Shown: positions 3,705 through 64,000 of the stretch, in pieces
How the letters are laid out: the number at the start of each line of letters is the position of its first letter
Numbering within the stretch: the first letter of the stretch is position 1
Assembly (NCBI GenBank): GCA_023667045.1
Contig: JAMPAU010000007.1
Span: forward strand, 1 to 64,000
DNA: 64,000 nt
Reading direction: 5' to 3'
Source of the DNA: Ruminococcus flavefaciens
GTDB taxonomy: Bacteria > Bacillota > Clostridia > Oscillospirales > Ruminococcaceae
Notes under the pieces: model-generated
The model's database searches: none
What the model was told of the DNA's origin: nothing
Seen by the model: the letters and a program-made list of their open reading frames with translations, nothing else
Program-made: the position numbers and the translations under genes

Positions 3705-3720
3705 AAAGGAGGAACTGTCT

Positions 3721-10398: not shown

Positions 10399-10427
10399 TT
10401 GACAAATCTGATAAAAAACATTATAAT
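10399..10427 (+). promoter_or_regulatory. Consensus promoter of the mannanase gene
   Basis: Exact TTGACA at 10399-10404 and exact TATAAT at 10422-10427, 17-base spacing. It lies inside the longest possible reading frame of the mannanase gene (which opens at 10399), showing that translation must begin further down, at ATG 10480. Confidence 0.9.
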
Positions 10428-10479
10428 ATATACATTAAGTACAACAATTTTTTTAATTTTTTGTAAAGGAGAAGATTTA

Positions 10480-15479: not shown

Positions 15480-16955
15480 TTAACTGAGCAGATTGTTAAG
15501 TTCTTCTGAGGTTATCGGGAGGTCGGCGGCGGTGATTATTTCAAGGTCTACCATTTGTATGGCGAGAGCGTCTATAGGAGTGAGACCGTTTCCCCTGTCT
15601 ACCACGTCGCCATTGAGAGCCTGTTCTTCGGTGAGTTTGTAGGCAGAGGGATTAGAGAGGCTCTGCATGATAAGTACAGCGTCAGCTATGCTTACTTTGC
15701 CGTCACCGTTAGTGTCGCCGATTAATCCAGTGGGTGTATCTGTGGTTGATTCTTCACCGATGACCTCAAACTTATATCCATATTTTTCGGCATACGCTTG
15801 TGCGGTAGAGTTTTCATAGCCGTATATTGTGCCTTTAAAACCGTCATAATAATCTGAAATCGTAAATTTATCATTATTAATTTCACAATCAGGATTTAGT
15901 ATTTTTATTTCAGTTAAACTATTACAACTGCTAAATGCACTGCTTCCGATACTTTCCACACTTTTGGGAATAACTACCGTTTTTAAAGAACTACAACCCG
16001 AAAATGCTTCGATGTTTATGTTCTTGATTCCCTCAGAAAGAACAACTTCAGACAATGATGAACAGCCGTTAAATGTTCTGTATCCTATATCTGTTACTCC
16101 GCTTGGAATTGTAACAGATACAAGCCCGCTGTCTATGAATGCTTCTCTGCTTATGCTTGTCACACTTTCGGGAATATTTATTTCCTGTAGAACTTTACAG
16201 CTAGAAAATGCTTCTTTACCGATACTTGTAACAGTTGAGGGAATTGAAACAGATTCCAGTTTTGTACAGCCATTAAATGCATGTTCTTCAATGTCTGTAA
16301 TCCCCTCATGAAGTATAGCAGATGTCATACTTTTGCAACCGGAAAATGCATAGCTGCCTATTGAATCGACTTTTTCCGGTATTTCAATTGACGTTAAAGC
16401 CTCACAGCCGGAAAATACACTAACGCCTATAGAAGACAGATTGCTTCCCTCTGCAAACTCTACAGTTGCAAGATTTGAACAGCTCTGAAAAGCCATATCT
16501 CCGATAATTGTAATGCTTGCCGGAAATTTAACCGACTTCAGCTTTTCACAGCTTCGGAATGCTTCACCATAAATAATTTCTATATTCTCCGGAATATTTA
16601 TATTTGTAAGTTTTTTGCAGTAAGCAAATGCATTCATGCCAATACTTGTGACACTGTCGGGAATAGTTACTGATATAAGATTATTAAAAAACTGAAATGC
16701 ATTATTTCCGATACTTGTTACTGGCTTGCCGTCAATTTCCGCCGGAATTTCTATCTTAGTAGCAGATGAATTGCTGTAACCTGTTATTTTTATAGTTTCG
16801 TCTTTATTAGTTGCGTATTTAAAATCACCATATGTGCTGTCCTCTGCACTTGCTGTCATGGACACAGCCGGAGCAATACTTTCCGGAATAACTGCCACAC
16901 CGAACGCAAGGCACACTGCCATGATTCCGGCTACTATTTTTCTTGATTTTTTCAT
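15480..16955 (-). CDS. Secreted BspA-type leucine-rich-repeat protein with C-terminal dockerin (paralogue A)
   Basis: 491 aa. Signal peptide (MKKSRKIVAGIMAVCLAFG...), then about a dozen LRR_5 (BspA/Treponema-type) repeats, each with a form such as F-x-x-C-x-x-L-x-x-V-x-I-P. A short domain follows with the segment GYENSTAQAYAEKYGY, then a dockerin (about 415-491) with DTNGDGKVSIADAV and a degenerate second loop. BspA repeats usually mediate protein-protein or host/biofilm adhesion, so this is likely a cellulosome-borne surface protein, not an enzyme. Signal peptide, dockerin and upstream DNA are near-copies of the gene at 25904-27250, while the repeat region differs. GGAGGA ribosome site before ATG 16955. 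Confidence 0.88.
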   Translation of the reverse strand: MKKSRKIVAGIMAVCLAFGVAVIPESIAPAVSMTASAEDSTYGDFKYATNKDETIKITGYSNSSATKIEIPAEIDGKPVTSIGNNAFQFFNNLISVTIPDSVTSIGMNAFAYCKKLTNINIPENIEIIYGEAFRSCEKLKSVKFPASITIIGDMAFQSCSNLATVEFAEGSNLSSIGVSVFSGCEALTSIEIPEKVDSIGSYAFSGCKSMTSAILHEGITDIEEHAFNGCTKLESVSIPSTVTSIGKEAFSSCKVLQEINIPESVTSISREAFIDSGLVSVTIPSGVTDIGYRTFNGCSSLSEVVLSEGIKNINIEAFSGCSSLKTVVIPKSVESIGSSAFSSCNSLTEIKILNPDCEINNDKFTISDYYDGFKGTIYGYENSTAQAYAEKYGYKFEVIGEESTTDTPTGLIGDTNGDGKVSIADAVLIMQSLSNPSAYKLTEEQALNGDVVDRGNGLTPIDALAIQMVDLEIITAADLPITSEELNNLLS

Positions 16956-24618: not shown

Positions 24619-25770
24619 TTATACATTATCTTTCAGAAATTCTTCAAATGAAAGTGTACCGCCTGTTGATACTTCCGCATAATAGCTTAAAATCAGCGAG
24701 GAATCAACGGCATTTACCTGTCCGTCAGCATTTACATCAGCAAATTTACTCTGTTCTTCATTAAGGGTTGAGGGGTTATTAACGGACAACTCTGCATATT
24801 CAGTAAGCACAATTGTAGCGTCAACTGCATCTATATACTCATCGCCGTTGATATTGCCGAGTGAATAAGACGGTTTTTCTAAAGTCTTGAAAGTCCTGTT
24901 ATATTTTTCGGCATAAGCCTGTGCTGTGGAGTTTTCATATCCATAGATAACGGCGTTTGAGTCAATCGTAAACGCACTGTCGTCTATCTCGCATTCGGGA
25001 TTCATGAAAGTTATTTCCTCAAGAGATGTACACTCATAGAATGCATAACTTGAAACTTTCTTTATATGCTCCGGAACTGTCACCTTTTTCAGATTCGACA
25101 TCTTACAGAATGTCCATGTGCCTATGCTTTGTACGTCACTGCCGAAATAAATTTCTGTAATGTTATCGCATTCGGACACCCACGGACGACCGCCGGAAAC
25201 AAAGTCGCACATATTTCCGAAACATTCTACTGTCAGCACACTGTTGGAAACATTCCACTTTAAAGCGTCTTTTGCAAAATTCTGCACACAGTAATAATAA
25301 CCGTCAGCATAAGCAACCCCCACGCCTATATCTGTGAACCACTCCCTCAGAATATTTTCACGGTGTCCAGTGGAGTTCATCCAGCCATTCATAGCCTCCT
25401 GCGGAACATCATCATATCCAGACATCTTTAATATATTTTCGCCGTTGCCGGAAGCGTATATATTATTCTCGTCAAGAATAGTATTCCACAATGTGCCGTC
25501 GGGTCTATAATGCGAATACTCTGTTATAATCTCCTCTGCTCTTTTTTGAGCCACAGCATTCAAGTAGGGGTTAAACGTAAGCGGTTCAAGACCCTCTTTA
25601 GCTCTTTCCTCGTTTACCATTTCAAAGATACTCTCAGCATATCCGGCAAGCGTTTCATCTTCGGCGGAAGAAACTGCCGAGACGTTCATTACACTGCCCG
25701 ACCTCTGCGAAATACCTGCTCCCGTCACAGCCATTAATACCGCTGTGATACCTGCTATTATTTTTTTCAT
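24619..25770 (-). CDS. Secreted CAP-domain (SCP/PR1-like) protein with LRR segment and dockerin
   Basis: 383 aa. Signal peptide, then a CAP domain (about 45-170): MVNEERAKEGLEPLTFNPYL, SHYRPDGTLW, GENI and MNSTGHRENIL, with the His and Glu of the CAP cavity. Next come two or three BspA-type LRR units and the segment GYENSTAQAYAEKYNR shared with the LRR proteins. The C-terminal dockerin (about 305-383) has GNINGDEYIDAVDAT and DVNADGQVNAVDSS repeats ending YYAEVSTGG. This DAVDxx type resembles the ScaB/CttA dockerin here. Bacterial CAP proteins have no agreed activity; surface attachment through the dockerin is the firm inference. Confidence 0.87.
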   Translation of the reverse strand: MKKIIAGITAVLMAVTGAGISQRSGSVMNVSAVSSAEDETLAGYAESIFEMVNEERAKEGLEPLTFNPYLNAVAQKRAEEIITEYSHYRPDGTLWNTILDENNIYASGNGENILKMSGYDDVPQEAMNGWMNSTGHRENILREWFTDIGVGVAYADGYYYCVQNFAKDALKWNVSNSVLTVECFGNMCDFVSGGRPWVSECDNITEIYFGSDVQSIGTWTFCKMSNLKKVTVPEHIKKVSSYAFYECTSLEEITFMNPECEIDDSAFTIDSNAVIYGYENSTAQAYAEKYNRTFKTLEKPSYSLGNINGDEYIDAVDATIVLTEYAELSVNNPSTLNEEQSKFADVNADGQVNAVDSSLILSYYAEVSTGGTLSFEEFLKDNV

Positions 25771-25903: not shown

Positions 25904-27250
25904 TTAACTAAGCAGATTGTTAAGTTCTTCTGAGGTTATCGGGAGGTCGTCGGCGGTGATTATTTCAAGGTCTACCATTTGTATGGCGAGAGCGTCTATA
26001 GGAGTGAGACCGTTTCCCCTGTCTACTACATCACCATTGAGAGCCTGTTCTTCAGTGAGTTTGTAGTTAGAGGGATTAGAGAGGCTCTGCATGATAAGTA
26101 CAGCGTCAGCTATGCTTACCTTGCCGTCGCAGTTAGTGTCGCCGAGTAATCCAGCGGTTGTATCTGTGGTTGATTCTTCGTCGAGTGCCACAAACTGATA
26201 ATTATATTTTTCGGCATATGTCTGTGCAGTAGAGCCGGTATAACCATATATTACAGTTTTTTCTTTATTACCGCCTAAAGATGTGCTAAACTCACATTCG
26301 GGATTTAATACGACTATTTTTTCAAGGCTTGAACATTTAAGAAAAGTGTTAGAACTTAAACTCATAACATTTTTTGGTATTGTTACTTCTTTAAGTGATT
26401 CACATTCAGAAAATGCATTAAATGGCACTTCTCTTAATTTATTAGAAAGCTTAACAGTTTCAAGATTTGAACATCTTAAGAATGTATTGTTTCCTAATGT
26501 CTTAACACTATCCGGCATATTAAAGTTAACAAAAGCTTGACAGTACTGGAATGCTCCCTCTTCAATGGTAGTTAAAGTATTCGGAAGTGTTATATCGGGA
26601 AGCTTTTCGCAACGACTGAATGCATAAGGTTTTATCTCTGTTATGCCGTCTGAAATTGATACATTTTCAAGATTGCTACAATTTGCAAATAAATAATCTG
26701 GTATTGAAGTTAAAGATGACGGAAATGATGCAGTTGTAAGTGAACTACAGCCACTAAAAGCTCCATATTCGACAGATTTAAGAGTTTCCGGAAATATCAT
26801 AGGAGTTGTAAGGTCTGTACAGTTTTCAAATGATTTTCTGCCTACTGTTTCAAGATTAGCAGGAATATTTATAGAAGTAAGTTTAGCACAGCCATTAAAT
26901 GCTTCATTTTCTATAGAAGTCACACTATTAGGGAGCGTTACTTTTTTCAGATATTTACAATTTTTAAATGAATTTGCACTAACATTTGTAATGCCGTCTT
27001 CAATAACGATTTCTGTTATAAAGTCTTTATCGTCTTTCCATGGTGCTCCAGACCAGCTATTAATCTCCATCATTTTGCCTGTACCGCTTATTGTAAGTAT
27101 ACCTGTTTCATCATCAAGCGACCATGTAGCCGGATTTTCTGTACTTTCTGCCATAGATACCACAGGAGCGACACTTTCCGGAATGACTGTCACACCAAAC
27201 GCAAGGCACACTGCCATGATTCCGGCTACTATTTTTCTTGATTTTTTCAT
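25904..27250 (-). CDS. Secreted BspA-type leucine-rich-repeat protein with C-terminal dockerin (paralogue B)
   Basis: 448 aa. Same design as the protein at 15480-16955: signal peptide differing in only a few residues, an N-terminal WSLDDETGILTISGTGKM module (the start of many BspA proteins), about nine LRR_5 units, GYTGSTAQTYAEKYNY, and an almost identical dockerin (DTNCDGKVSIADAV). The repeat regions of the two differ, so termini and upstream DNA look duplicated or converted while the presumed binding surface diverged. Likely a cellulosome-attached adhesion or scaffold accessory. GGAGGA ribosome site before ATG 27250; A16 tract upstream. Confidence 0.88.
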   Translation of the reverse strand: MKKSRKIVAGIMAVCLAFGVTVIPESVAPVVSMAESTENPATWSLDDETGILTISGTGKMMEINSWSGAPWKDDKDFITEIVIEDGITNVSANSFKNCKYLKKVTLPNSVTSIENEAFNGCAKLTSINIPANLETVGRKSFENCTDLTTPMIFPETLKSVEYGAFSGCSSLTTASFPSSLTSIPDYLFANCSNLENVSISDGITEIKPYAFSRCEKLPDITLPNTLTTIEEGAFQYCQAFVNFNMPDSVKTLGNNTFLRCSNLETVKLSNKLREVPFNAFSECESLKEVTIPKNVMSLSSNTFLKCSSLEKIVVLNPECEFSTSLGGNKEKTVIYGYTGSTAQTYAEKYNYQFVALDEESTTDTTAGLLGDTNCDGKVSIADAVLIMQSLSNPSNYKLTEEQALNGDVVDRGNGLTPIDALAIQMVDLEIITADDLPITSEELNNLLS

Positions 27251-34564: not shown

Positions 34565-36277
34565 ATGAAAAAGAAATCATTCAAAAGCAGACTGACAGCA
34601 CTTACAGCAGTTCTTTCAATTTCTTGCTGTGCAGTGACAATGCCTGTAATTGCCGACTGGGAACAGATAGGGTGTATGGGCGACCTCAACAACGACTCAG
34701 AAGTAAATGTTGCCGACCTGCTCCTGCTCTCAAAGTATATGCTCGGCAGTATCTCTCTTACAACCGAAAACGCTTATCATATAGACGGAAGCTATTACTC
34801 AGTAAACGGCAGTGAGGCAGATAATTCAGTTGAATATCTCCAGACAGCCGACATAAACCAAGACGGCAGAATAGATATTTTTGACCTGATTATGATGCGT
34901 AAGTACGTTATAAACAAATGGGCTGACCCTGTATACATATGGAAAGATGATACTGAAACTTCTACGTCATCTTCCTCAACTACCACAACAACTACTATAG
35001 CTACAGCGGTTTCCTCAGATACAGAAACAACTACCTCGACAACTTCCGCACCTGCATTCATTGAAGCACCAGTAAAAAATCTTTACGGCTCTATGCCCTC
35101 TCAGAATAACGCCGAAATGGTTATATTTTATGTGGATTTTCCGGACTGTCCATATAAATATGAACCGTCTGTATCAGAAATAGAAAAAATAGCATTTGGC
35201 ACAGAAGATACTGAAAACAAAAACTATCCCTTTGAGAGTATGTCGGCATTCTATAACCGTTCTTCAAAAGGCAGTATGAAACTTAACGGTAAGGTATTCC
35301 GCTATACCACCAAAGAAAACAAATCCGCATACGAGGGCGACATATACCACGTAAACCTTATAAATGAGGTTTTCGAGACATTCAAGGACAGTGCAGACTT
35401 CACGGAATTTGATGGCAACAAAGACAGCATTATTGATACAACGCTGATTTCTGTTCCGGAAGACGCAGGCGATGACAACTGGTGGCCAGCAGCCGGACAG
35501 TACGGCGGTAACACAGACCTTAAAGTTGACGGTATGTCAGTAGGTCACGTTATAGTAGGAAATGCCCAGATTGAAAGCAAGACAGACTACAAAAACTTCA
35601 CAAGCAGTTATCTGCACGAAATGGGTCACTGCATGGGACTGCCCGATTACTACCTTTACAACGGCGAAAAGGACTTTGAGGGTCTGCACGGTTCGGCAGG
35701 CTATGAGATGATGGACGAGACAAACGCTGACTTCTCTGCTGTCTCAAAGCTCATGCTTGGCTGGTTCAAAAAAGAACAGGTTACAGTATACGACCCCACT
35801 GTGAAAAATCAGACTTTCACACTCTCAAACGCTCAGAAAGAAAACGGCAACTGTGTTATCATACCGTGCGGAAAACTCGAAGATAACTATTATTCGGAGT
35901 TTCTGATAGTCGAATACGCCACCCTTGACGTAAACAACAGCCGTCTTAAAAAAGACTACTGGTGGAAAACTACCGGCTCAGGCGTAAGGGTATTCCATGT
36001 TGAAGGCACTGTAAATGATAATATAGGTTGGAAATACTGGAAATATGCAAGCGGTGACAATGAGGCTACCAACAATGACACCGGAAAGCGTTTTATCCGT
36101 ATTATAGATGATACCGACACAGACAACCTCTACCGCACAGGCGACGTAATAGACGGAAGTATTTCCGGTTTCAAGTGGTACGCTGAGGACGGCACACAAT
36201 CAGTTGATGTGGGGCTGAAAATAACTGTCGGCGATATGACTGACGATTCATGCGTAATTACCATTTCAGAAAAATAA
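34565..36277 (+). CDS. Secreted M6-like metalloprotease with N-terminal dockerin
   Basis: 570 aa. Signal peptide (to about residue 30), then an N-terminal dockerin (about 37-122) with calcium loops DLNNDSEVNVADLL and DINQDGRIDIFDLI separated by an unusually long 50-residue stretch. After a Ser/Thr linker comes a peptidase domain (about 165-570) with the zinc motif HEMGHCMGLPD, HExxH plus the downstream Gly and Asp of M6/immune-inhibitor-A-type proteases, and a methionine-turn candidate GYEMMDE. It would degrade protein on or near the cellulosome. Dockerins are mostly C-terminal, so this placement is unusual. The next gene starts 15 bases after its stop. Confidence 0.85.
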   Translation: MKKKSFKSRLTALTAVLSISCCAVTMPVIADWEQIGCMGDLNNDSEVNVADLLLLSKYMLGSISLTTENAYHIDGSYYSVNGSEADNSVEYLQTADINQDGRIDIFDLIMMRKYVINKWADPVYIWKDDTETSTSSSSTTTTTTIATAVSSDTETTTSTTSAPAFIEAPVKNLYGSMPSQNNAEMVIFYVDFPDCPYKYEPSVSEIEKIAFGTEDTENKNYPFESMSAFYNRSSKGSMKLNGKVFRYTTKENKSAYEGDIYHVNLINEVFETFKDSADFTEFDGNKDSIIDTTLISVPEDAGDDNWWPAAGQYGGNTDLKVDGMSVGHVIVGNAQIESKTDYKNFTSSYLHEMGHCMGLPDYYLYNGEKDFEGLHGSAGYEMMDETNADFSAVSKLMLGWFKKEQVTVYDPTVKNQTFTLSNAQKENGNCVIIPCGKLEDNYYSEFLIVEYATLDVNNSRLKKDYWWKTTGSGVRVFHVEGTVNDNIGWKYWKYASGDNEATNNDTGKRFIRIIDDTDTDNLYRTGDVIDGSISGFKWYAEDGTQSVDVGLKITVGDMTDDSCVITISEK

Positions 36278-53638: not shown

Positions 53639-53670
53639 AAAAGGCTCTCCCGAAGGAGAGTCTTTTTATT
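53639..53670 (+). terminator. Terminator after the TtcA-like gene
   Basis: GGCTCTCC-CGAA-GGAGAGTC with A and T5 runs, also facing the convergent scaE end, so possibly bidirectional. Confidence 0.88.
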
Positions 53671-53689: not shown

Positions 53690-54787
53690 TTAGTCATTCT
53701 TCTTTCTGAGAACGAATGCAGTACCGATTGCAACTGCGAGACCAGCAGCAGCTACGCCTACGCCAGCAACACCAGTCTTTGGTGATTCCTTACCAGCAGC
53801 AGTTGTTGTCTTAGCTGTAGTTGTTTTAGCTGTAGTTGTCTTAGCTGTTGTTTCAGACTGTGTAGCAGAATCAGATGTTGATGCAGAAGCAGATGTTGAT
53901 GCAGAAGCAGATGTTGTTGCAGATGATGTAGTAGCAGTAGGTGTTGTAGAAGTTGTAGATGTAGGAGTTGTAGATGTAGGAGTTGTAGATGTAGTAGTAG
54001 TTGTTGTTGTTGTAGGTGTTGTAGAAGTTGTAGTAGTTGTTGTGGTTGTAGGTGTTGTAGAAGTTGTAGTAGTTGTTGTAGTTGTTGTAGTTGTTGTAGT
54101 TGTTGTTGTAGTTGTTGTAGTTGTAGTAGTTGTTGTTGTGCCAGCTTCAATCTGAATGTAACCCTGTGTTATACCCTGAGTGAATGCATAAGCCTGCATG
54201 AGCTTACCTGTTTCATTGTTTGTCTTGTTAGTGAAAAGGTCCTTAGCATTGGCAGTGCTCTGGTAGTCAATCTGAATCGGGAAGAGTTCACCGCCCTCAA
54301 CAGAATCGGGGAGCTTGAAGTTAATTGTATATGCAACACCAGTAAAACCAGCATCGCCGTTACCAGATGTTGTAAGGAATACGCCTGTATCGCCGTTGTC
54401 CTTAATCTGCTGAGCAAGACGTTTAACAGCAGGACCAGCTTCAATATTGTAGTAGCCCCAATCATCAATGTCAAACTTTATATTCTTGCCGTTTTCACTT
54501 GGGTAGCAGTTTACATGGAGACCAGTTGATGAATAAACCTGGTCTACGTTACCGCCTATTGTAATTGTAACCGGAACAGTGCCGTCATTTGCAATAATTT
54601 CCTGTGCCTCTGCCAGTGAAAGAGTTACCTGTTCAACTGTAAGTGTAGGCTTGTACTCAGAGCCTGCAATTGTAGTAGCATCAAAACCATTATCGGGAGT
54701 AGCAAAAGCAGAAATTGAAGTAGCAGATACTGCAACAGCGGAAACTGCAAGTGCAGTAAAAGCTTTCTTTAAAGAATTAGTCTTCAT
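53690..54787 (-). CDS. scaE: ScaE-like cell-wall-anchored cohesin protein
   Basis: 365 aa. Signal peptide (to about residue 29), one cohesin domain (about 35-215: SEYKPTLTVEQVTLSLAEAQ ... PIQIDYQSTANAKDLF), a Thr-rich linker of about 100 residues, then a sorting signal: SPKTG (an LPxTG variant), hydrophobic helix GVAGVGVAAAGLAVAIGTAF and basic end RKKND. Sortase would link it to peptidoglycan. In R. flavefaciens the single ScaE cohesin binds the X-dockerins of ScaB and CttA and so fixes the whole cellulosome to the cell. Last gene of the cluster in the known order. AAAGGAAAT ribosome site. Confidence 0.93.
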   Translation of the reverse strand: MKTNSLKKAFTALAVSAVAVSATSISAFATPDNGFDATTIAGSEYKPTLTVEQVTLSLAEAQEIIANDGTVPVTITIGGNVDQVYSSTGLHVNCYPSENGKNIKFDIDDWGYYNIEAGPAVKRLAQQIKDNGDTGVFLTTSGNGDAGFTGVAYTINFKLPDSVEGGELFPIQIDYQSTANAKDLFTNKTNNETGKLMQAYAFTQGITQGYIQIEAGTTTTTTTTTTTTTTTTTTTTTTTTTTSTTPTTTTTTTTSTTPTTTTTTTTSTTPTSTTPTSTTSTTPTATTSSATTSASASTSASASTSDSATQSETTAKTTTAKTTTAKTTTAAGKESPKTGVAGVGVAAAGLAVAIGTAFVLRKKND

Positions 54788-54828
54788 TTTGATTTATTTC
54801 CTTTCAGATTAAATTAAAATTATTTATA

Positions 54829-54855
54829 TTTATCTGCCGCCACCCGACGGCAGAT
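54829..54855 (-). terminator. Hairpin between cttA and scaE
   Basis: TCTGCCG-CCACCCG-ACGGCAGA hairpin (54831-54853) downstream of cttA; the following T-content is modest, so it may be an attenuator or RNA-processing/stability element rather than a full stop. It could set the cttA to scaE ratio. Confidence 0.55.
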
Positions 54856-54870
54856 TTCACACATTATAGA

Positions 54871-57369
54871 TTAACTGTTAAAAATTTCGTCCCAACCGTC
54901 TCTGTCACCAATTGTAAACTCATCTTCTGTTGCAAGAAGAGAATAGTACATCTGGATAGCTGTTGCATCATTAGCATCAACCATTCTATCTGCCTTAGTT
55001 GCCTTCCAGTTGTCCTTTACTTCTCCAACATCAGACTGGTTCGGGTCGCCAAGGAATGCAGCGAAGTCATCATAAATTGATGTAGGACCATCAATTAAGT
55101 CAGAATATCCAAGTTGAGCTGTATCTACAGTACCGCCGGTTGAAAGTACAGCATAGTAAGTAAGTACCTGTGTGCCGTCAACTGCGTCAACATAATAGTC
55201 AAGGTTTACGTCACCTAAGTAACCGATATAAACTTCTACTGAAGCATCACTGCCGTCAGCAGTCTTGAGTGCGTCGCCCTCTGTGAGAACTACCTTACCT
55301 GTTGAATCGCTGACTGTAGGACCTGCATAAGTAAGAACTGCATCATACTTGAAGTCTTCGTCGCCAACTGTAAACATTTCATTAGGAGTTGAAGCAAATC
55401 CAAAATCAATTGTCTTGTCTTCGTCTGCGAGGTCTTCGTCTACATAAGTAATGTGAAGAACGAGATTATCGCCGACCTGGTCTTTATGGAATTCTTCTTC
55501 ATAGCTGTAGTAGAAACCATAGCTTGCAGTTTCAACTGATACTGTTAAGCTTTCTACTTCGCCAGCAAGTACAAGACCAGAGCCTGAACCTGTTGTAGTT
55601 GTTTCTGTGCCTGTTTCAGAACCTGTAGCACTTGTTTCTGTTGTAACTGTTCCTGTGCCTGTCTCAGAACCTGTAGCACTTGTTTCTGTTGTAACTGTTC
55701 CTGTGCCTGTCTCAGAACCTGTAGCGCTTGTTTCTGTTGTAACTGTTCCTGTGCCTGTCTCAGAACCTGTAGCGCTTGTTTCTGTTGTAACTGTTTCTGT
55801 GCCTGTCTCAGAACCTGTAGCACTTGTTTCTGTTGTAACTGTTTCTGTACCTGTCTCAGAACCTGTAGCACTTGTTTCTGTTGTAGTTGTTTCTGTGCCT
55901 GTCTCAGAACCTGTAGCACTTGTTTCTGTTGTAGTTGTTTCTGTGCCTGTCTCTGTTTCGCTTGTTACTGTAGTAGTTGTAGTTGTTTCAGTTTCGCTGT
56001 CTGTTGAAACTGTAGTAGTTGTTGTAGTAGTGGAATCAGTTGTAGTAGTAGATGATGTTGTTGAAGTTGTTGTAACAGGGTCTCTGTAAATTCTTAAACC
56101 TACTGTAGCAAGAATATCGTCTGCATTGTAGATGTCGCCGACTTCAACAGTAGCAACCATATGCTTTACAGAATCTGCCACTTCGTCATCTGGGAAATCG
56201 CCAGTGAGTGTGTAAGTACCCTGTTTTGCTGTTGCTGTAAGACCGTAGAGGTCATTATCAGCAAATGAAGCAATATCTGCTGTAGTAATATCTATATTGT
56301 AATTAACGGAAATCTTATTGATTTCGTTCATTACAACATCGTAGAGGTCAGCCACATAAGAGTTATTCATAATATCTGTTACAGTTGCAGGGATATTAAT
56401 TTCTCTGTTGAACTTATCTTCTACCTTGTCAATCTTGTCGCTGTACTTGCCGTTGTCAATGTAGTCGTTGATAGTCTCGATAAGGCTCTTCATATTAGGA
56501 CTGCTTGCACTGCGTTCAACAGTGTAAACCTTATCCTTATTATTGTTAGCCTTGTTAATCCATCCTTCATACTTTGAGAATTTGCTGTCGAAATCAGCCT
56601 TAGCCTTAGCTGTTACATCAGCAGGAAGATTAGCACTGTCAATTGAAGCATAAGCTATAGCCTTGATTTCATTGAACTTAGCAAGAGCAAAGTCACCAGC
56701 ATCGCCGGCTGCAAATACTGTCTTGCCGTTAACAGCTGTGTTAGCAGTATACTTAGCCTTTACGTCCATTGTGTAGCCGTTTGCAAGGTCACTGCCCTCG
56801 ATTACAACTTCATATGTACCGGAGAAATCAACTGAGCTGAAATCTGCCTCTGCAATTTCCGGAGCGCCATACTTTTCAGCAAGTTCTTTCATTGAATCGT
56901 CAAGAGAAATTACCTTACCAGCATCCATGAAAGCGGACAGGTCAGGATTTACAATTTTTCCGGTAACAGTAATATCGCCATTGTTGGAAATTGTGTACTG
57001 TACGCCGTCTTCACTGAGCATATCAATAACGAGCTGTGCTTTTCCGGAATACTTTCCAGAATGATTAAGGATAGCATTCGCTATAGTTTCCTTTGCAATT
57101 GTGTTTGCCTTGTTGTTGTTTTTGTTGCCTATTGCAACGAGTTCAGCATAGAAAGCAGAATACCATGTAGATTCTGTCTGACCGGGAGCAATATAAAGAA
57201 GATTATCTTTAAGAGTATAAACTTCCTTTTCAGATGATTCTGTATTTTCTGCCGTTGACTGAACTGAATCATTTGTTACAGCGTAAGACGTATAAGTCAG
57301 ACACTGAGAGAGAGCAAGCGGAACAGAAGCTACTGTTGCAAAAACTCTCTTAAATAATGAATTCTTCAT
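54871..57369 (-). CDS. cttA: CttA-like cellulose-adhesion protein with C-terminal X-dockerin
   Basis: 832 aa. Signal peptide (MKNSLFKRVFATVASVPLAL), a large N-terminal region (about 50-440) with no recognised enzyme motif where CttA has its carbohydrate-binding modules, then a Thr/Glu/Gly linker (about 445-600) containing seven 16-residue repeats. The X module (about 605-715) is followed by a dockerin (about 715-800) with GDVNLDYYVDAVDGTQ and DANDATAIQ. The X-dockerin shares YDDFAAFLGD and DGPTS with ScaB, so both should dock on ScaE. CttA assignment rests on X-dockerin plus gene order. Start ATG 57369 has GAGAGG; 138 further in-frame bases upstream contain no start signal. Confidence 0.85.
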   Translation of the reverse strand: MKNSLFKRVFATVASVPLALSQCLTYTSYAVTNDSVQSTAENTESSEKEVYTLKDNLLYIAPGQTESTWYSAFYAELVAIGNKNNNKANTIAKETIANAILNHSGKYSGKAQLVIDMLSEDGVQYTISNNGDITVTGKIVNPDLSAFMDAGKVISLDDSMKELAEKYGAPEIAEADFSSVDFSGTYEVVIEGSDLANGYTMDVKAKYTANTAVNGKTVFAAGDAGDFALAKFNEIKAIAYASIDSANLPADVTAKAKADFDSKFSKYEGWINKANNNKDKVYTVERSASSPNMKSLIETINDYIDNGKYSDKIDKVEDKFNREINIPATVTDIMNNSYVADLYDVVMNEINKISVNYNIDITTADIASFADNDLYGLTATAKQGTYTLTGDFPDDEVADSVKHMVATVEVGDIYNADDILATVGLRIYRDPVTTTSTTSSTTTTDSTTTTTTTVSTDSETETTTTTTVTSETETGTETTTTETSATGSETGTETTTTETSATGSETGTETVTTETSATGSETGTETVTTETSATGSETGTGTVTTETSATGSETGTGTVTTETSATGSETGTGTVTTETSATGSETGTETTTTGSGSGLVLAGEVESLTVSVETASYGFYYSYEEEFHKDQVGDNLVLHITYVDEDLADEDKTIDFGFASTPNEMFTVGDEDFKYDAVLTYAGPTVSDSTGKVVLTEGDALKTADGSDASVEVYIGYLGDVNLDYYVDAVDGTQVLTYYAVLSTGGTVDTAQLGYSDLIDGPTSIYDDFAAFLGDPNQSDVGEVKDNWKATKADRMVDANDATAIQMYYSLLATEDEFTIGDRDGWDEIFNS
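55610..55945 (-). repeat. 48-bp minisatellite in cttA (7 units)
   Basis: Seven tandem units of 48 bp (reading CCTGTCTCAGAACCTGTAGC on the plus strand at each start) encode a 16-residue Thr/Glu/Ser/Gly repeat containing ATGSETGT. Units differ by only a few bases, and adjacent units are most alike. Confidence 0.92.
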
Positions 57370-57497
57370 TGTTTTATACCTCTCTAATATATTTTTTCCA
57401 GAACTGACAAATATTTGATATAAGTCATTATATCCGGAGTTAAATTTCAGCGGGGTAAACATAAACCTATAACTAACCCCCAGAAATTCATAACTAC

Positions 57498-57526
57498 ATT
57501 TTATCACACAAAACGCAATAAGTCAA
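57498..57526 (-). promoter_or_regulatory. Promoter of cttA
   Basis: Minus strand TTGACT (57526-57521) and TAAAAT (57503-57498), 17-base spacing, giving a leader of about 120 bases before the cttA ATG. The 57370-57791 gap otherwise holds only AT-rich DNA and the scaB terminator. Confidence 0.7.
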
Positions 57527-57741
57527 GCGGTACTGTAGAATTTTTTTAAAAATTATTCACGATTAAAAGCTTTGTTTTTTGTACTTATTTCACAATTTCA
57601 ACATCAAAAACCGCCTAAAATTACATTTTTAAGAATTTAATGTAAAATTTTATTTTTTTATAAATAATAATACAGCGAGAATCCTCTTGTAATATTATCA
57701 TATCACTTTAAATTCCATTTGTCAAGATGTAGTTTTTTCCG

Positions 57742-57775
57742 AAAAAAAAGCAGACCGGAGAGGTCTGCTTTTTTA
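57742..57775 (-). terminator. Terminator after scaB
   Basis: AGCAGACC-GGAG-AGGTCTGCT hairpin with A8 and T6 flanks, just beyond the scaB stop codon at 57792. It separates scaA-scaB from cttA-scaE. Confidence 0.92.
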
Positions 57776-57791
57776 ATTGTTTTAGTGGTGA

Positions 57792-60700
57792 TTATGCCTG
57801 TTTGCCATACTTATCAAGTGTAGCCTGTACATAGGATGCATCGCCGAATCTGAACGGTGATGAAATATCCCATGCTTCCTGAACAGTCATCTCGCCGAGA
57901 GGCTCAACTTCTGTTGAGGCATATGAATAGAATACCTGAATTGCAGTAGCGTCTGTAGCCATAATCTCTCTGCCAGCCTTCTTTAGCTTCCAGTTGTCAG
58001 GGTCCCACTCATTTACGTCAACGTCGCCAAGGAATGCAGCGAAATCGTCGTAAACTGATGTAGGTCCGTCAACTAACTCAGAATCTGAAAGTTTAACATC
58101 ATTTGGTGTTGTACCATTTGTTGAAACTTCAGCATAGTAGGTCAGTGCCTGTGAGCCGTCAATTGCGTCAGCAGCATTGTCAAGGTTTATATCGCCCTTT
58201 ACGCCGATATATACAGTAATTACTACCTGTTCTTTATCGGGATTGAGGAGAGGACGAATATCGTCTTCACCGTCTGTACCGAAGTTGTAGTATACAGGAA
58301 CTTCATACTTGAATGTATCGTTATTGATGTCGTATACGCTTGCAGGAGTTGCACCATTGAATGTGATGTTTGCAGGGTCAAAGCTTACTTCTTCAGGTTC
58401 AGCACCTTCATAGTCAACCTTGAACATCTTAGCAATTGTAATCTGGTCTTTGCTGAATCCGCCTTCCTTAGTACCGCCTTCACGTGTACCGTCGTCATGG
58501 CTGAAGTAGAAACCGATTTCAGTTGTAAGGTCTGCATAGTAGTGAGGATATGTGAGAGTTGTAGTAGTTGTTGTTTCAGTTGTTGTTGTAGTTGTTGTCT
58601 GTGTAGTAGACTGTGTCTGACTTGCGTTAGAAACGTTTGTAGACGCACTAGTTCTTGTATTTGAAGCATCAGTGTTGTCAATAGAACCAGTTGTAGTTGT
58701 AGTTACAGTAGTAACTGTAGTTGTTTCAGTAGTAGTTGTTTCAGTAGTTGTTGTTGTAGATTCTGTTGTTGAAGCAGATGTTGTAGCGGAAGATGTTGTT
58801 GAAGCGGAAGTTGTAGCAGAAGATGTTGTTGAAGCTGATGTTGTAGCGGAAGCACTTGTTGAAGCTGATGTTGTAGCAGAAGATGTTGTTGAAGCTGATG
58901 TTGTAGCGGAAGCTGTAGTAGTTGTTGTAGTTGTAGTAGTTGTTGTTGTAGAAGTTGTAGTAGTTGATGTAGTCTTAGCCTTAACGATGATAGCACCGTC
59001 AATTGTCATGATATTCTTTGTAATATCATTGCCGTTTGTGTCGCTTGCAAAGAGGTCAGTAATTGTTACAGGGTAAGTACCGTCTGCACAGTCTTCCGGA
59101 ACAGTGTAAGTAAGTGTAATTACAACGTCGCCGTCTGCAGCAGCAGTGCCAGCACCCTTTGAGTTAGCGAATGCATACTCGTTTGTCTTGTCATTTGCAA
59201 CAAGTGTATTGCCGTAAGGTGTACCTGCGGACTTGTCGTAAATAATCGGGTCTGTACCATTGATAACAAACTGTGCACCGCCTACAGGAAGCTTAGAGTC
59301 GTTTGTATCCTTAACAACCATGTTTACAGTAACTGTTTCGCCGGGTTCAGCTGTAACAGTATCAATCTGCCAGATGATAGCACCGGAAGCAGCTGTAACT
59401 GTAGTAGTTGTGGTTGTTGTTGTAGTAGTGGTTGTTGTTGTAGTTGTAGTTGTTGTAGTTGTTGTAGTTGTAGTAGGTGCAGAAGTTGTAGTAGTGGACT
59501 TAGCCTCTACGATGATAGCACCGTCAACAACGAGGATATTCTTTGTAATGTCAGTACCGTTAGTATCGCTTACAAAGAGGTCTGTAAGAGTTACAGGGTA
59601 TCTGCCGGGTTCGCAGTCGTCCGGAATATCAAATGTAAGTGTAACTACATTTGACTTATCTGGAGCGATAACAGAACTGCCGATTTCATGAGCAAATGCT
59701 ACTTCCTTTTCGTTAGCTACAACGTCAGCACCATAGCCCTCTGAACCAGTTACACCCTTATATGTTACACCGGTAGCAGAATCAATGATGAACTGAGCAC
59801 CGGAAACAGGGAGCTTAGCATCTTTCTGGTCGTTAACAACAACGTTAACCTTTACGTTTGTATCGCCAGGGTTAACAGTTACAGTATCAACTACCCACAT
59901 GATGTTTCCATCGGGAGCAGTAACTGTAGTAGTTGTTGTAGTCGGAGTAGTTGTAGTAGTTGTGGTTGTAGTAGTAGTTGTTGTTGTTGTAGTTGTGGTT
60001 GTTGTAGTAGAAGCAGAAGTTGTAGTAGTAGTCTTTGCCTTAACAATGATAGCACCGTCAATTGTCATGATATTCTTTGTAATATCAAGACCGTTTGTGT
60101 CACTTGCAAAGAGGTCAGTAATTGTTACGGGATAAGTACCGTCTGCACAGTCTTCCGGAACAGTGTAAGTAAGTGTAATTACAACGTCGCCGTCTGCAGC
60201 AGCAGTGCCAGCACCCTTTGAGTTAGCGAATGCATACTCGTTTGTCTTGTCATTTGCAACAAGTGTATTGCCGTAAGGTGTACCTGCGGACTTGTCGTAA
60301 ATAATCGGGTCTGTACCATTGATAACAAACTGTGCACCGCCTACAGGAAGCTTAGAGTCGTTTGTATCCTTAACAACCATGTTTACAGTAACTGTTTCGC
60401 CGGGTTCAGCTGTAACAGTATCAATCTGCCAGATGATAGCACCAGAAGCAGCTGTAACTGTAGTAGTTGTGGTTGTTGTTGTAGTTGTGGTGGTGGTAGT
60501 TGTTGTTGTGGTGGTAGTTGTGGTAGAAGCAGAAGTTGTAGTAGTAGTCTTTGCCTTGATATTGATAGCACCGTCAACGAGCTTTACCTTTGAGGTAATG
60601 TCCTTGCCGTTTGTATCAGAAATGAAAGCATCTGACCACTTAACCGGATATTTGCCGTCTGCACAGTCATCCGGAACTGTGAATGTAAGAACAAGAACAT

Positions 60701-62591
60701 TGTCTTTGTCCTTTGCTGCAACGCCTGAGCCAATGCCCTGAGCGAAAGCAAATTCATTAGTCTTAGCGTTTTCAACTACTGTTGCGTCGTAAGCTTCAGA
60801 ACCTGTTGACTTTTCATATACGATAGGTGAATCAGCCTTAATAACAAACTGAGCGCCAGCTACAGCAAGAGCAGGGTCTGAACTTCCGTCAACGTAAACT
60901 TCCATAGTAACTGTGTCACCGGGTTCAGCGTCAACTTCTGGAATTACCCATGAAACTTCACCTTCAGCAGCTTCAACATCTTCAACGGTAATTGAACCGT
61001 CAAGAAGTTTAATGTTATCTGTGATTTCATTACCGTTTGTATCAGAGATAAATGCCTCAGACCATGTTACAGGATATGTGCCGGGAGCTGTAGGAGCTGT
61101 ATAAGTAAGTGTAAGAACCTTAGCACCGTTATCAGCAGCAATTCCCTTGCCTATGCCCTGTCCGAATGCAAATTCATCTGTTTCCTTGTTGTTTACAACT
61201 GTAGAATCGTAAGCAGATGAGCCGTCAACTGAAACAAATTCAGCTGTATCAGCAGTAATCTTGAACTGCGCACCAGCTACAGGAACAGCAGCGTTTGCAG
61301 TATCATTTACTATTACGTCCATAGTAACAGTTTCGCCGGGCTTAGCTGTTACTTCGGGAATATCCCATTCAATTACGCCTTCAACTGATTCATCAATGAT
61401 GATAGCACCGTCAAGCTTTTCAATCTTGTCAGTAATGTCGAGACCATTTGTATCACTTACAAAGAGGTCGCTCCATGTAACAGGATATGTACCTGCCTTA
61501 GCGTCAGCCGGAACAGCGTACTCAACTGTGAGAATAACCGCACCGTCCTTAGCAACAGTACCCTTGCCTATGCTCTGTCCGAATGCATATTCATTTCTAT
61601 CAGCATTGTAAACAAGTGAAGAATCATAAGCATTTGAACCGCTTGCAGTAGGCTTGCCGAACATACCGTCAGCAATTACCTTAAACTCTGCACCTGCTAC
61701 TGCAAGGTCAGAATCACCGCTTACAACTACATCGAGAGTAGCCTTTCCGCCCTTCTGAGCGTGAACTGTCGGGATAACCCATGCAGCATTTCCGTCAGCC
61801 GGCTTGTAGGTAGTAGTTGTAGTTGTTGTTGCTGAACTTGAAGAAGCGGTTGTCTGAGAGGCAGTTGTAGTAGCCTTAGTTGTGCCGTCCTTAGTAGTTG
61901 CAGTGGTAGTAGTTGTTGTTGTAGCCTTGGTAGTAGTAGCAGAAGAAGCAGTTGTTGTGCTTGATGTGCTACCAATATCACCAATAGCAATGTAGCCGTC
62001 AATTACGTCAGAAGTGTAGAATGTTTCAGGCGATGATGTCTTCATAAATGCTGCTTTGCTTGCAGAAATTTTATAAAGACCGTCTGGTGTACCGTCTGGA
62101 ACTGTGAAAGTAAGGTACGCAAGGATATTATTACTATTATCAACAGGAATACCCTCACCCTTTACCTGTGTGATAGAAGAGAAGTTAGGAAGTTTTTTAT
62201 TGGCGGTTATGCCGGCATTAGCAAATGCTGGTGAAACAGTGTCAACTTCAAAACCAAAATCACCTTCGTAGTCAATTACCATTGAGAATGATATAGGAAG
62301 TATTGTATCATTCTTTGAAGTAACGTGAGCATCAACATAAACTACGCCGTTGTCCTCTGGGTCTACTCTCCAGTAACCGTCATCTGAATTAGGATTTGTG
62401 AAGTCAACAACAACGTCTGCATCTGATGCCATTTTATTTGCAGCTATGTCTTTTACTCCACCCATACTAACATTAGGCTGCACGGCAGGAACACTGCCGG
62501 CAGCACTAACTACGATAGATGAGGTAAATGCACTTGACACGAACGTTGCCGCCATGACAAGAGACGTAACTGCGGAAAGCAGTTTCTTCAT
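57792..62591 (-). CDS. scaB: ScaB-like scaffoldin: seven cohesins and C-terminal X-dockerin
   Basis: 1599 aa. Signal peptide, then seven cohesins at about residues 58-205, 268-400, 404-537, 542-680, 716-853, 896-1033 and 1073-1211, separated by Thr tracts, and an X-dockerin at about 1355-1599 (GDINLDNAADAIDGSQ, YDDFAAFLGD, MATDATAIQVF). Cohesin 1 is nearly the same as the ScaA cohesin, while cohesins 2-7 are another type (PVTWSDLFVSDTNG pattern). Cohesins 5 and 7 differ by about one residue. R. flavefaciens ScaB receives ScaA and binds ScaE. Fifty-two bases after scaA, so co-transcribed with it. AAAGGAAAT ribosome site. Confidence 0.95.
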   Translation of the reverse strand: MKKLLSAVTSLVMAATFVSSAFTSSIVVSAAGSVPAVQPNVSMGGVKDIAANKMASDADVVVDFTNPNSDDGYWRVDPEDNGVVYVDAHVTSKNDTILPISFSMVIDYEGDFGFEVDTVSPAFANAGITANKKLPNFSSITQVKGEGIPVDNSNNILAYLTFTVPDGTPDGLYKISASKAAFMKTSSPETFYTSDVIDGYIAIGDIGSTSSTTTASSATTTKATTTTTTTATTKDGTTKATTTASQTTASSSSATTTTTTTYKPADGNAAWVIPTVHAQKGGKATLDVVVSGDSDLAVAGAEFKVIADGMFGKPTASGSNAYDSSLVYNADRNEYAFGQSIGKGTVAKDGAVILTVEYAVPADAKAGTYPVTWSDLFVSDTNGLDITDKIEKLDGAIIIDESVEGVIEWDIPEVTAKPGETVTMDVIVNDTANAAVPVAGAQFKITADTAEFVSVDGSSAYDSTVVNNKETDEFAFGQGIGKGIAADNGAKVLTLTYTAPTAPGTYPVTWSEAFISDTNGNEITDNIKLLDGSITVEDVEAAEGEVSWVIPEVDAEPGDTVTMEVYVDGSSDPALAVAGAQFVIKADSPIVYEKSTGSEAYDATVVENAKTNEFAFAQGIGSGVAAKDKDNVLVLTFTVPDDCADGKYPVKWSDAFISDTNGKDITSKVKLVDGAINIKAKTTTTTSASTTTTTTTTTTTTTTTTTTTTTTVTAASGAIIWQIDTVTAEPGETVTVNMVVKDTNDSKLPVGGAQFVINGTDPIIYDKSAGTPYGNTLVANDKTNEYAFANSKGAGTAAADGDVVITLTYTVPEDCADGTYPVTITDLFASDTNGLDITKNIMTIDGAIIVKAKTTTTTSASTTTTTTTTTTTTTTTTTTTTTPTTTTTTVTAPDGNIMWVVDTVTVNPGDTNVKVNVVVNDQKDAKLPVSGAQFIIDSATGVTYKGVTGSEGYGADVVANEKEVAFAHEIGSSVIAPDKSNVVTLTFDIPDDCEPGRYPVTLTDLFVSDTNGTDITKNILVVDGAIIVEAKSTTTTSAPTTTTTTTTTTTTTTTTTTTTTTTTTVTAASGAIIWQIDTVTAEPGETVTVNMVVKDTNDSKLPVGGAQFVINGTDPIIYDKSAGTPYGNTLVANDKTNEYAFANSKGAGTAAADGDVVITLTYTVPEDCADGTYPVTITDLFASDTNGNDITKNIMTIDGAIIVKAKTTSTTTTSTTTTTTTTTTTTASATTSASTTSSATTSASTSASATTSASTTSSATTSASTTSSATTSASTTESTTTTTETTTTETTTVTTVTTTTTGSIDNTDASNTRTSASTNVSNASQTQSTTQTTTTTTTETTTTTTLTYPHYYADLTTEIGFYFSHDDGTREGGTKEGGFSKDQITIAKMFKVDYEGAEPEEVSFDPANITFNGATPASVYDINNDTFKYEVPVYYNFGTDGEDDIRPLLNPDKEQVVITVYIGVKGDINLDNAADAIDGSQALTYYAEVSTNGTTPNDVKLSDSELVDGPTSVYDDFAAFLGDVDVNEWDPDNWKLKKAGREIMATDATAIQVFYSYASTEVEPLGEMTVQEAWDISSPFRFGDASYVQATLDKYGKQA
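58970..59400 (-). repeat. Cohesin direct repeat, copy 2 (cohesin 7 of scaB)
   Basis: About 430 bp nearly identical to 60030-60463, encoding cohesin 7; only scattered single-base changes are visible. Confidence 0.9.
60030..60463 (-). repeat. Cohesin direct repeat, copy 1 (cohesin 5 of scaB)
   Basis: Partner of 58970-59400. The encoded cohesins differ at about one position (NGLDITK versus NGNDITK). Cohesin 6, lying between, is clearly different. Confidence 0.9.
61968..62400 (-). repeat. ScaA-type cohesin repeat in scaB (cohesin 1)
   Basis: Highly similar over about 430 bp to 63003-63440 in scaA, including the segments for SFSMVIDYEGDFGFEVD and KLPNFSSITQVKGEGIPVD. Confidence 0.88.
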
Positions 62592-62643
62592 CTGTGCATT
62601 TCCTTTCCGGGCAATTGCCCTTTTATATTAATTATAAGAGATA

Positions 62644-64000
62644 TTACTGATTAACAGGAAGTTCTACAAGATGAACAATGCTCTTGATGATAGCATCAGA
62701 GTCTTCAGCTGTAAGTTCCTTGCCATCCTTCGGGTTGTAGCAGTCAGCGTTAATCTTACCCTGGTCAGAGATAGCATATGACTTATTGTCATTGAGGTAC
62801 TTGTTGAGAAGAACAACGTCGTTAATCTTTACAGAACCGTCGCAGTTTGTATCACCGTAAAGCTTTGTGACAGGCTTTCCTGTTGTTGAAGCTGTAGTAG
62901 CAGAAGATGTTGTCTTGTCACCTGTATTAGCTGTAGTAGCTGTTGTAGTTGTTGTTGTTGTTGAACCAGTTGTTGAGCCAGCAGTTGTTGTTGTAGATGT
63001 GCCAGGGTCAACATCACCGATAGCAATATAACCATCAATTACGCCAGAAGTGTAGAATGTTTCAGGTGATGATGTCTTCATAAATGCTGCTTTGCTTGCA
63101 GAAATCTTGTAAAGACCGTCAGGTGTGCCGTCCGGAACTGTGAAAGTAAGGTATGCAAGGATATTATTGTCCTTATCAACAGGAATACCCTCACCCTTTA
63201 CCTGTGTGATAGAAGAGAAGTTAGGAAGCTTCTTATTGGCAGTTATACCGGAATTAGCAAATGCTGGTGAAACAGAGTCAACTTCAAAACCAAAATCACC
63301 TTCATAGTCAATTACCATTGAGAATGATATAGGAAGTATTGTATCGTCCTTTGAAGTAACGTGAGCATCAACATAAACTACGCTGCTATCATCTTCGTCT
63401 ACTCTCCAGTAGCCGTCCTCTGAATTAGGATTTGTGAAGTCAACTATTACGTCGCCGTCAACAGAAGGCTTAGCGCTTGAAGTTGTTGTTGTAGTTGTTG
63501 AGCCTGCACCGCTTGTAGATGCTGTTGTAGCTGTTGTAGCAGTAGATGCTGTTGTGCTTGAGCTGCCAGCATCGCCAACCTTAATAGTAAGTGAATTGAG
63601 GTCGAGGTTCTTGTTTGTGTATGTTTCGTAAGCTTCATTTGTTTCAAGAACGCATGATGCATTACCTGAGAATGTAAGATAGTTACAGAAATCAATTACA
63701 TAATCGCCCTCAGCAATGCCCTTAGGAAGTGTTACATCAAAAACAACACACGGGAAATCACTTGACTTTGCACCGTACCAGCTCTGTAATTTTTCACCAC
63801 CGCTTAACCATACACAACCAACGAAAGCATTGTCTGTGCCAGCATCTGTCTGTGATTCATCACAAGCTACATTGTACATACCGTGTGGCTTATAGCCTGA
63901 CCTCTTATTGTATGAACCAGCAAAAGCAACAACCTTAGTTGTTGTGATTTCACTGCCGTCAGCTATTTTGAAAGAATGTGCTTCAGCGAAGTAATCTTCA
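62644..64000 (-). CDS. scaA: ScaA-like scaffoldin, 5' end beyond the window
   Basis: Open from the right window edge, so the N-terminus is missing; about 451 codons are visible. It starts within a module resembling the end of a cohesin (FDVTLPKGIAEGDYVIDFCN...LTIKVGD), then Thr linker, a full cohesin (about 62990-63470) nearly identical to ScaB cohesin 1, a second Thr linker, and a C-terminal dockerin (DTNCDGSVKINDVV, then a divergent second loop NADCYNPKDGKEL). In R. flavefaciens ScaA carries two or three cohesins that hold enzymes, and its dockerin binds ScaB. An ATG inside (63879) is not the start, as reading frame and homology continue upstream. Confidence 0.9.
   Translation of the reverse strand, partial: EDYFAEAHSFKIADGSEITTTKVVAFAGSYNKRSGYKPHGMYNVACDESQTDAGTDNAFVGCVWLSGGEKLQSWYGAKSSDFPCVVFDVTLPKGIAEGDYVIDFCNYLTFSGNASCVLETNEAYETYTNKNLDLNSLTIKVGDAGSSSTTASTATTATTASTSGAGSTTTTTTSSAKPSVDGDVIVDFTNPNSEDGYWRVDEDDSSVVYVDAHVTSKDDTILPISFSMVIDYEGDFGFEVDSVSPAFANSGITANKKLPNFSSITQVKGEGIPVDKDNNILAYLTFTVPDGTPDGLYKISASKAAFMKTSSPETFYTSGVIDGYIAIGDVDPGTSTTTTAGSTTGSTTTTTTTATTANTGDKTTSSATTASTTGKPVTKLYGDTNCDGSVKINDVVLLNKYLNDNKSYAISDQGKINADCYNPKDGKELTAEDSDAIIKSIVHLVELPVNQ
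63003..63440 (-). repeat. ScaA-type cohesin repeat in scaA
   Basis: Partner of 61968-62400; the two cohesins differ at only a few residues (for example AFANSG versus AFANAG). Confidence 0.88.

Follow-up and report, generated by a model that had tools for sequence, protein, structure and literature searches.

A Ruminococcus flavefaciens-type scaffoldin locus with closely matching A-type cohesins in ScaA and ScaB

The 64,000-base stretch of Ruminococcus flavefaciens DNA analyzed here (the window, G000:C90:1-64000) belongs to a genome of 3.64 Mb in 112 contigs (G000) and ends in four genes on the minus strand (53690-64000), consecutive in the open reading frame (ORF) list: scaA, scaB, cttA, and scaE, the first of these cut by the window edge. 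An earlier note, made from the window sequence, had named the same four genes in this order, had recognized in them the scaffoldin cluster of R. flavefaciens, and had predicted scaC just to the right. The order, domain make-up, and module identities do agree with the published descriptions, and since contig C90 (80,618 bases) could be read past the edge, scaC was found at C90:64452-65282 (minus strand). All five genes, scaC-scaA-scaB-cttA-scaE, lie in order on one strand and are intact in this genome.

The modules were identified by sequence matches to solved R. flavefaciens structures. ScaE (53690..54787, minus; 365 residues) consists of a signal peptide, a type III cohesin (about residues 28-218) matching the ScaE cohesin 2zf9_A (3e-23), a Thr-rich spacer, and an NPXTG-type sortase signal (NCBIfam NF033846, 30.9 bits against a cut-off of 23.5). 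CttA (54871..57369, minus; 832 residues) has a two-part N-terminal region, a Thr-rich spacer, and an X-dockerin matching 4wkz_A (2e-20); its ORF is open from a GTG at 57507 (54871-57507, 878 residues), and the ATG at 57369, behind GAGAGG, is the likelier start. ScaB (57792..62591, minus; 1599 residues) carries a signal peptide, seven cohesins, with a match to 5n5p_A, cohesin 5 of ScaB (4e-36), and a C-terminal X-dockerin (residues 1342-1576) that matches CttA 4wkz (3e-27) and 4iu2 (1e-26). ScaA (62644..64000 in the window, minus) has 451 residues up to the open end (62644-63999) and 562 when completed from the contig (C90:62644-64332); beside the cohesin (5m2s_A, 1e-5) and the group-5-type dockerin (FD-1 ScaA dockerin 5n5p_B, 6e-23) expected from the note, which was to that extent incomplete, the full protein carries a further domain at the N-terminus, about 230 residues long (28-255), with a predicted cohesin fold. 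ScaC (276 residues) joins one cohesin (solved ScaC cohesin 5lxv_A, 3e-50) to a group-1-type dockerin (5m2o_B, 3e-13).

The seven ScaB cohesins that the note had counted were refined, with profiles built from the window's own modules, to one N-terminal A-type cohesin (residues 76-204) like that of ScaA and six B-type cohesins, the fifth and seventh cohesins of the series being 99% alike. Pfam sees six of the seven and, in the four window proteins, adds only the ScaB X module (PF18244, 28 bits, cut-off 25) and a sub-threshold ScaA dockerin. Pfam alone gave no cohesin match in ScaA or ScaE, a gap that by the note's own criterion would have counted against these two and that comparison with solved sequences resolved; that standard profiles miss type III cohesins of Ruminococcus has been reported (PMC11557425).

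The five-gene order is kept in 9 of 20 regions fetched around relatives of ScaE (L089, L091, L092, L094, L098-L101, and L103); the rest run into the end of a contig or of the fetched region, or carry a ScaE-like cohesin elsewhere (L096, L107). All 13 loci found by their ScaC show the order scaC-scaA-scaB, and four of them (L076, L077, L078, and L082) lie on the same contigs as L094, L091, L092, and L089 among the nine, each being counted once. These 13 genomes together with the window genome, 14 in all, are referred to as the clade. The 13 are metagenome-assembled genomes (MAGs) labelled Ruminococcus, except one labelled Alistipes senegalensis, and some record names, with words such as water deer colon or 'Lapin', hint at the animal gut. 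The exception, L082 (JAMPEF010000025.1), carries a Ruminococcus sca cluster and is probably a mislabelled MAG. ScaB is broken into two ORFs in L085, L098, L099, and L101, as is ScaA in L098. A search with the ScaE cohesin gave matches in 107 of the 125 genomes of the genus, many of them more distant cohesins.

ScaA and ScaB of one clade genome have A-type cohesins far more alike than those of different genomes. ScaA has a single A-type cohesin throughout the clade, the window included (two or three in L099, L101, and L103, while both ScaA cohesins of L100 score as B-type). ScaB has two in the clade members L081, L086, and L088, in which case the last was taken for comparison; by domain calls L102 also has two, and none was called in L098, L099, L100, L101, L103, L104, and L108, of which L098, L099, and L101 have split ORFs. 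Within a clade genome the ScaA and ScaB modules share 76-96% identity with synonymous divergence (dS) of 0.09-1.11 (47 residues only in L084), and between genomes a median of 36% (22-77). Averaged over the 14 clade genomes, identity was 88.9% to the own and 37.0% to other genomes and synonymous differences were 0.24 and 0.65; the own genome was best in 14 of 14 cases, and none of 5000 shuffles was as high. An all-genome set of 15 was left unused, its L098 entry being an artefact of two ORFs from one split scaA. When 172 cohesins of A- and B-type were placed in a tree, the two A-type modules of a genome paired up in all 14 clade genomes (support 93/65 for the L092 pair), while window ScaB cohesins 2, 3, 4, and 6 each joined B-type cohesins of other genomes and 5 and 7 joined each other; the tree has few columns, an unsettled bootstrap, and long branches, and the L084 ScaB row fills 30% of its columns.

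Among the module sets compared between genomes, the A-type cohesin is the fastest changing: median identities are 79% for the ScaA dockerin, 68% for the ScaC cohesin, 62% for the first B-type cohesin (12 genomes), 58% for the ScaA N-terminal domain, and 55% for the ScaC dockerin. Control pairs in the clade (ScaC and ScaE cohesins, ScaA N-terminal domain and first B-type cohesin, A-type and B-type cohesins, ScaC and ScaA dockerins, ScaA and GH48 dockerins) gave no own-genome preference, with 1086-4073 of 5000 shuffles as high. The shuffles keep no phylogeny and the own-versus-other design compares different genes; shared ancestry alone does not readily give such a pattern, to which composition or old copying could add.

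The dockerins expected to meet these cohesins differ between genomes in a similar sense. In 9 of 10 clade genomes (8 of 10 with another alignment) the ScaC dockerin is closest to the dockerin of the glycoside hydrolase (GH) family 48 enzyme of its own genome, at 70.9% identity against 58.1% to others (none of 5000 shuffles as high); left out were L081 and L083 (no GH48 found), L085 and L091 (fetched piece without a dockerin), and L103 (dockerin cut). Group-1 dockerins at large were collected with a profile (A3) built without G000, G092, and G133, the three genomes then searched; the top Pfam Dockerin_1 matches had been tried as a source and abandoned, the filter passing one in G000, one in G092, and none in G133. 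In G000 the profile gave 33 matches, of which 23 reach at least 80 bits; the next is the ScaA dockerin at 49. Across the three genomes, 61 of 67 group-1 dockerins besides those of ScaC could be aligned, and they carry genome-specific residues: the commonest helix 1 is L-A-D-A-V-L-I-M-Q-A-L-S-N-P-N in G000, I-S-D-A-V-L-I-M-Q-S-I-S-N-P-S in G092, and I-N-D-A-V-L-I-M-Q-S-I-A-N-P-D in G133. Numbered by aligning the motif to the residues named in PMC5429695, positions 53, 87, 40, 38, 76, and 86 are the most informative of genome (1.0-1.4 bits; at most 0.26 anywhere after shuffling), and 40, 86, and 87 are among the contacts named in that paper. Hardly any variation is seen at positions 43-47, 55, and 83. 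For the cohesin side, contact numbering was set aside because of its low-identity alignment, and no residue pairs are claimed.

Specificity columns chosen on the three genomes were tried on seven others, where the agreement was 0.65 within a genome and 0.28 with others (none of 5000 shuffles as high; counting ties, own genome best in 5 of 7), compared with 0.72 and 0.67 in the remaining columns (50 of 5000). The fit is far from perfect, for the nearest of 14 ScaC dockerins was the own one for 11 of 21 single dockerins in G000, 13 of 24 in G092, and 6 of 16 in G133. This count excludes the ScaC dockerins, as well as matches without the search motif (one in G000, five in G133). The G133 ranks may be lowered by near relatives with similar ScaC dockerins.

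These patterns would fit a species-specific lock with many keys, in which A-type cohesins alike within a species but only about 37% identical between species are followed by some 21-24 scattered group-1 dockerins per genome, together with that of ScaC, shifting at or next to the contact positions (38-40, 48-50, 53-54, 76, and 86-87). We consider this proposal evenly balanced, having favored it slightly until the A-labelled cohesins proved not to form one group in the tree. A competing explanation, in our estimate somewhat less likely than not, is that the residues shared by ScaC and enzyme dockerins arose mainly by copying of dockerin DNA among loci instead of by separate substitutions under selection. 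Some pairs are indeed recent copies: the GH48 and GH9 dockerins of L195 and L196 (G000:C24:842155 and 944345, about 100 kb apart) are identical over 69 residues and in 205 of 207 bases, while only 39 of the 90 bases before them match, and similar pairs occur in G092 (L235/L236) and G133 (L261/L273). Yet in most within-genome pairs the unchanged residues are encoded by different codons about half of the time (medians 0.50-0.54), which suggests residues matching without recent DNA exchange, and synonymous differences between ScaC and GH48 dockerins are hardly lower within a genome than between genomes (0.63 vs 0.67). Old copying followed by saturation is the form of this explanation that would still account for the shared residues.

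Exchange of DNA between scaA and scaB is suggested for the cohesins because high within-genome identity goes with low synonymous divergence. In the window, the tract alike in the two genes lies at 61894..62417 (minus strand; scaB nucleotides 175-698 against scaA 880-1400) and is 87.7% identical over 527 columns, which take in the A-type module (scaA 931-1317, scaB 226-612) and its edges; outside it only weaker matches of 88-121 columns occur, in or near repeat-rich spacers. The alike tract was the module with short edges in all 13 genomes for which the right ORFs had been taken (for L085 a ScaB ORF without the A-type cohesin had been picked; in L084 the contig end leaves 162 bases). Such a trace would be expected of gene conversion or repeated copying between neighboring scaA and scaB. 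That the module was instead newly duplicated, in each species, out of one of the genes into its neighbor appears rather unlikely: duplication and conversion leave the same sequence trace, and the number of A-type cohesins does vary, ScaB having two in three clade members, but the module stands at the ScaB N-terminus in all 14 clade genomes, as would an old module overwritten in place, and the likeness is confined to it and its short edges.

Dockerin-bearing enzymes and sortases are present in the genome. Pfam finds 12 cohesin matches, 10 over the cut-off and seven of these in the sca cluster. For dockerins it gives 108 matches at E up to 1, and 86 are marked as over the cut-off (three only with neighbors); 2 of 14 control genomes also show dockerin matches over the cut-off. 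There are seven sortase matches, six over the cut-off, and one GH48, which bears a dockerin. The 23 strong group-1 matches include ScaC and one locus (L215) without a Pfam scan; the 21 carriers examined, one (L212) as the window ORF 15480-16955 and the other 20 mostly as pieces of about 580 residues cut by the locus edge, comprise six GH9, one GH48, one GH10, two GH5, two GH26, one pectate lyase, two leucine-rich repeat (LRR) proteins (L208, L212), and six with other or no Pfam matches at E up to 1e-10.

Very probably, then, the locus is the core scaffoldin locus of an R. flavefaciens-type cell-surface cellulosome, including the homogenization of its A-type cohesins with group-1 dockerins following. 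By analogy with FD-1 biochemistry, from which the binding partners are taken, the single ScaE cohesin would hold the X-dockerins of the scaffold ScaB and the adhesin CttA; the six B-type ScaB cohesins would hold ScaA through its special dockerin; and the A-type cohesins, one on ScaA and one on ScaB, would load group-1-dockerin enzymes (GH48, GH9, GH5, GH10, GH26, and others) and the adaptor ScaC, whose own cohesin, by the same analogy only, would recruit enzymes with other dockerin groups. In FD-1, according to tables in PMC5301203, GH48 and ScaC dockerins belong to group 1 and pair with A-type cohesins, the ScaA dockerin pairs with ScaB cohesins 5-9, and the ScaB and CttA X-dockerins pair with ScaE. 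The ScaE-anchored assembly proposed in the earlier note is supported by the modules and the sortase signal. DNA exchange would keep the A-type cohesins of scaA and scaB alike in each species while they diverge fast between species, and group-1 dockerins would follow. A decayed or non-cellulosomal remnant, with the scaffoldins serving some other surface complex, for example a mucin- or protein-directed one, is very improbable, since, although several window dockerin proteins are not plant-polymer enzymes (LRR_5, CAP, SH3_3, and one with no other named domain) and non-cellulosomal use has been proposed for other dockerin/cohesin systems, all five sca genes are intact and 13 of the 21 group-1 carriers are GH9, GH48, GH5, GH10, or GH26 enzymes or a pectate lyase.

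Several observations weigh against the cellulosomal reading or parts of it. The X-dockerin recognition pairs are Ala-Ile/Ala-Thr in ScaB and Ala-Val/Ala-Asn in CttA, against Gly-Arg in both loops of 4wkz and 4iu2, and with these pairs replaced and the ScaE cohesin divergent, the pairing with ScaE is drawn by analogy. The ScaB and CttA X-dockerins were tried as a second co-changing pair and rejected (own genome best in 2 of 5 in the clade, 705 of 5000 shuffles as high); over 14 genomes there was a weak own-genome preference (best in 3 of 14, none of 5000). The window A-type cohesin matches the FD-1 A-type weakly (8e-6), and in the tree 31 clade A-labelled cohesins stand apart while the B-type side takes in 12 from L098, L099, L101, L102, and L103, so that 'A-type' may not be a class shared with FD-1 by descent. 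The CttA N-terminal region gave no match in Pfam, NCBIfam, or PDB sequence searches, and its AlphaFold2 model (seven sequences) was poor, with a predicted local distance difference test score (pLDDT) of 56.6 and no Foldseek match at E up to 0.001. This two-part region is conserved in relatives and is, by analogy with the two cellulose-binding modules expected of an R. flavefaciens-type CttA, the putative adhesin part. X-dockerin loops look common within L102 (Gly-Arg), within L098, L099, and L101 (Ser first in most loops), and within L089, L091, L092, and L103 (Ala-Val), and are less regular in L100, L104, L105, and L108.

Comparison with FD-1 and strain 17 was made through solved modules and papers. 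FD-1 has the same five genes, two cohesin subtypes on one ScaB, an N-terminal part of ScaA listed as unknown (UNK), X-dockerins on ScaB and CttA, and a sortase-anchored ScaE (PMC5301203, PMC5934362, PMC5429695). It differs in having four A-type and five B-type cohesins on ScaB (PMC4081043, PMC5934362) where the window has one and six, and two A-type cohesins on ScaA where the window has one. Strains 17 and 007c are described as sharing the gene order and ScaE anchoring, and strain 17 ScaB has seven cohesins, as here, all of one subtype, whereas the first in the window is A-type (PMC4081043). In the FD-1 X-dockerins the Gly-Arg pairs are present that are replaced in the window. The cellulosome of Ruminococcus champanellensis from the human gut, which PMC11557425 mentions, is likewise sortase-anchored and ScaC-bearing.

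As a system this is an ordinary ScaE-anchored cellulosome, and the unexpected part is the evolutionary pattern. Species specificity of cohesin-dockerin pairs is already known from clostridia, where, as would be the case here, few contact residues decide the fit (Pages 1997 and others, cited in PMC12484212); the clostridial evidence is biochemistry on distant species pairs, whereas here there is a sequence pattern over 14 related genomes. Unlike in the clostridial cases, a pair of scaffoldin genes appear to have had their cohesins homogenized, and in three genomes the dockerins have shifted at many loci. In the open-licence literature we found no description of concerted change in cohesin/dockerin modules, which does not imply absence elsewhere. 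The cluster extends the sca system to another Ruminococcus genome. If the species lock is true, the scaffold of each species would likely load its own enzymes and not those of habitat neighbors, which would bear on whether gut cellulosome enzymes are private or shared goods; if confirmed, it would turn close relatives into a natural series of orthogonal cohesin-dockerin pairs and make the change of a one-to-many binding interface without breakage directly testable.

The ScaA N-terminal domain (residues 28-255) has no PDB sequence match at E up to 1. An AlphaFold2 model of its relative in L079 (13 sequences; pLDDT 79.9, predicted template modelling (TM) score 0.82) gave, in a Foldseek search of the PDB, cohesins for all of the first 18 matches, with 12 matches at E up to 0.001, among them 2zf9_A (E 1.5e-5, probability 1.00). 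Across the 18 cohesin rows, TM scores were 0.37-0.64 target-normalized and 0.32-0.47 query-normalized and root-mean-square deviations 5.7-11.0. With these moderate scores, the domain is predicted from the relative's model to have a divergent cohesin fold, which would add another socket to a model system. FD-1 ScaA is tabulated as UNK-Coh-Coh-Doc (PMC5301203), and its UNK part is likely the same domain, judging from the table entry. Strain 007c ScaA is reported with four cohesins, one in no family (PMC11557425); this one may be the same domain, and the cohesin idea is for that reason probably not wholly new.

Signals found by consensus scan would divide the cluster. A strong promoter-like site upstream of cttA (57697..57725, minus) reads TTGACA-17-TATGAT preceded by TG (extended -10; 11/12), a T-tract hairpin, symmetrical and 13 pairs long (57744..57774), lies just past the scaB stop, and a terminator-like hairpin (53645..53660, minus) stands 3' of scaE, which suggests two transcription units, scaC-scaA-scaB and cttA-scaE. 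By the scan counts in the region (27 promoters against 20.5 expected, 7 terminators against 7.8), single sites are weak evidence, so this division leans on where the sites lie. Right of scaC follow a CapA-like gene and apparent housekeeping genes, named from reading translations only, and the sca cluster seems to stop there.

Other dockerin and cohesin proteins were seen along the way. In the window, a GH26 enzyme with a group-1 dockerin lies at 10399-12588 (plus), and two BspA-type LRR proteins, at 15480-16955 (minus, L212) and 25904-27250 (minus, L208), carry nearly the same group-1 dockerin (DNA 94% alike at helix 1); most LRR-borne dockerins of FD-1 are reported as non-binders of the cohesins tested on a microarray (PMC5301203). 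Further dockerin proteins have a CAP domain and LRR (24619-25770, minus), an SH3_3 domain (6549-8627, plus), or no other named domain at E up to 1e-4 (34565-36277, plus), and a choline-binding-repeat protein with a transglutaminase-like domain lies at 1322-2830 (plus). Elsewhere in the genome, L013:3490-10515 (minus; G000:C101) encodes a scaffoldin-like chain of 2341 residues, outside the cluster, with both cohesin and dockerin matches and, read by eye, apparent RCC1-type and LRR repeats, and L012:4262-6967 (plus; G000:C61) encodes 901 residues with an N-terminal cohesin, next to a dockerin protein of 1383 residues. Among ScaE relatives, L090:17423-19018 (minus; G111:C15) has two tandem ScaE-type cohesins, and extra ScaE-type cohesin proteins with weak X-dockerin-like ends lie outside the sca cluster at L105:309-1265, L106:2202-3131, and L107:15157-16131.

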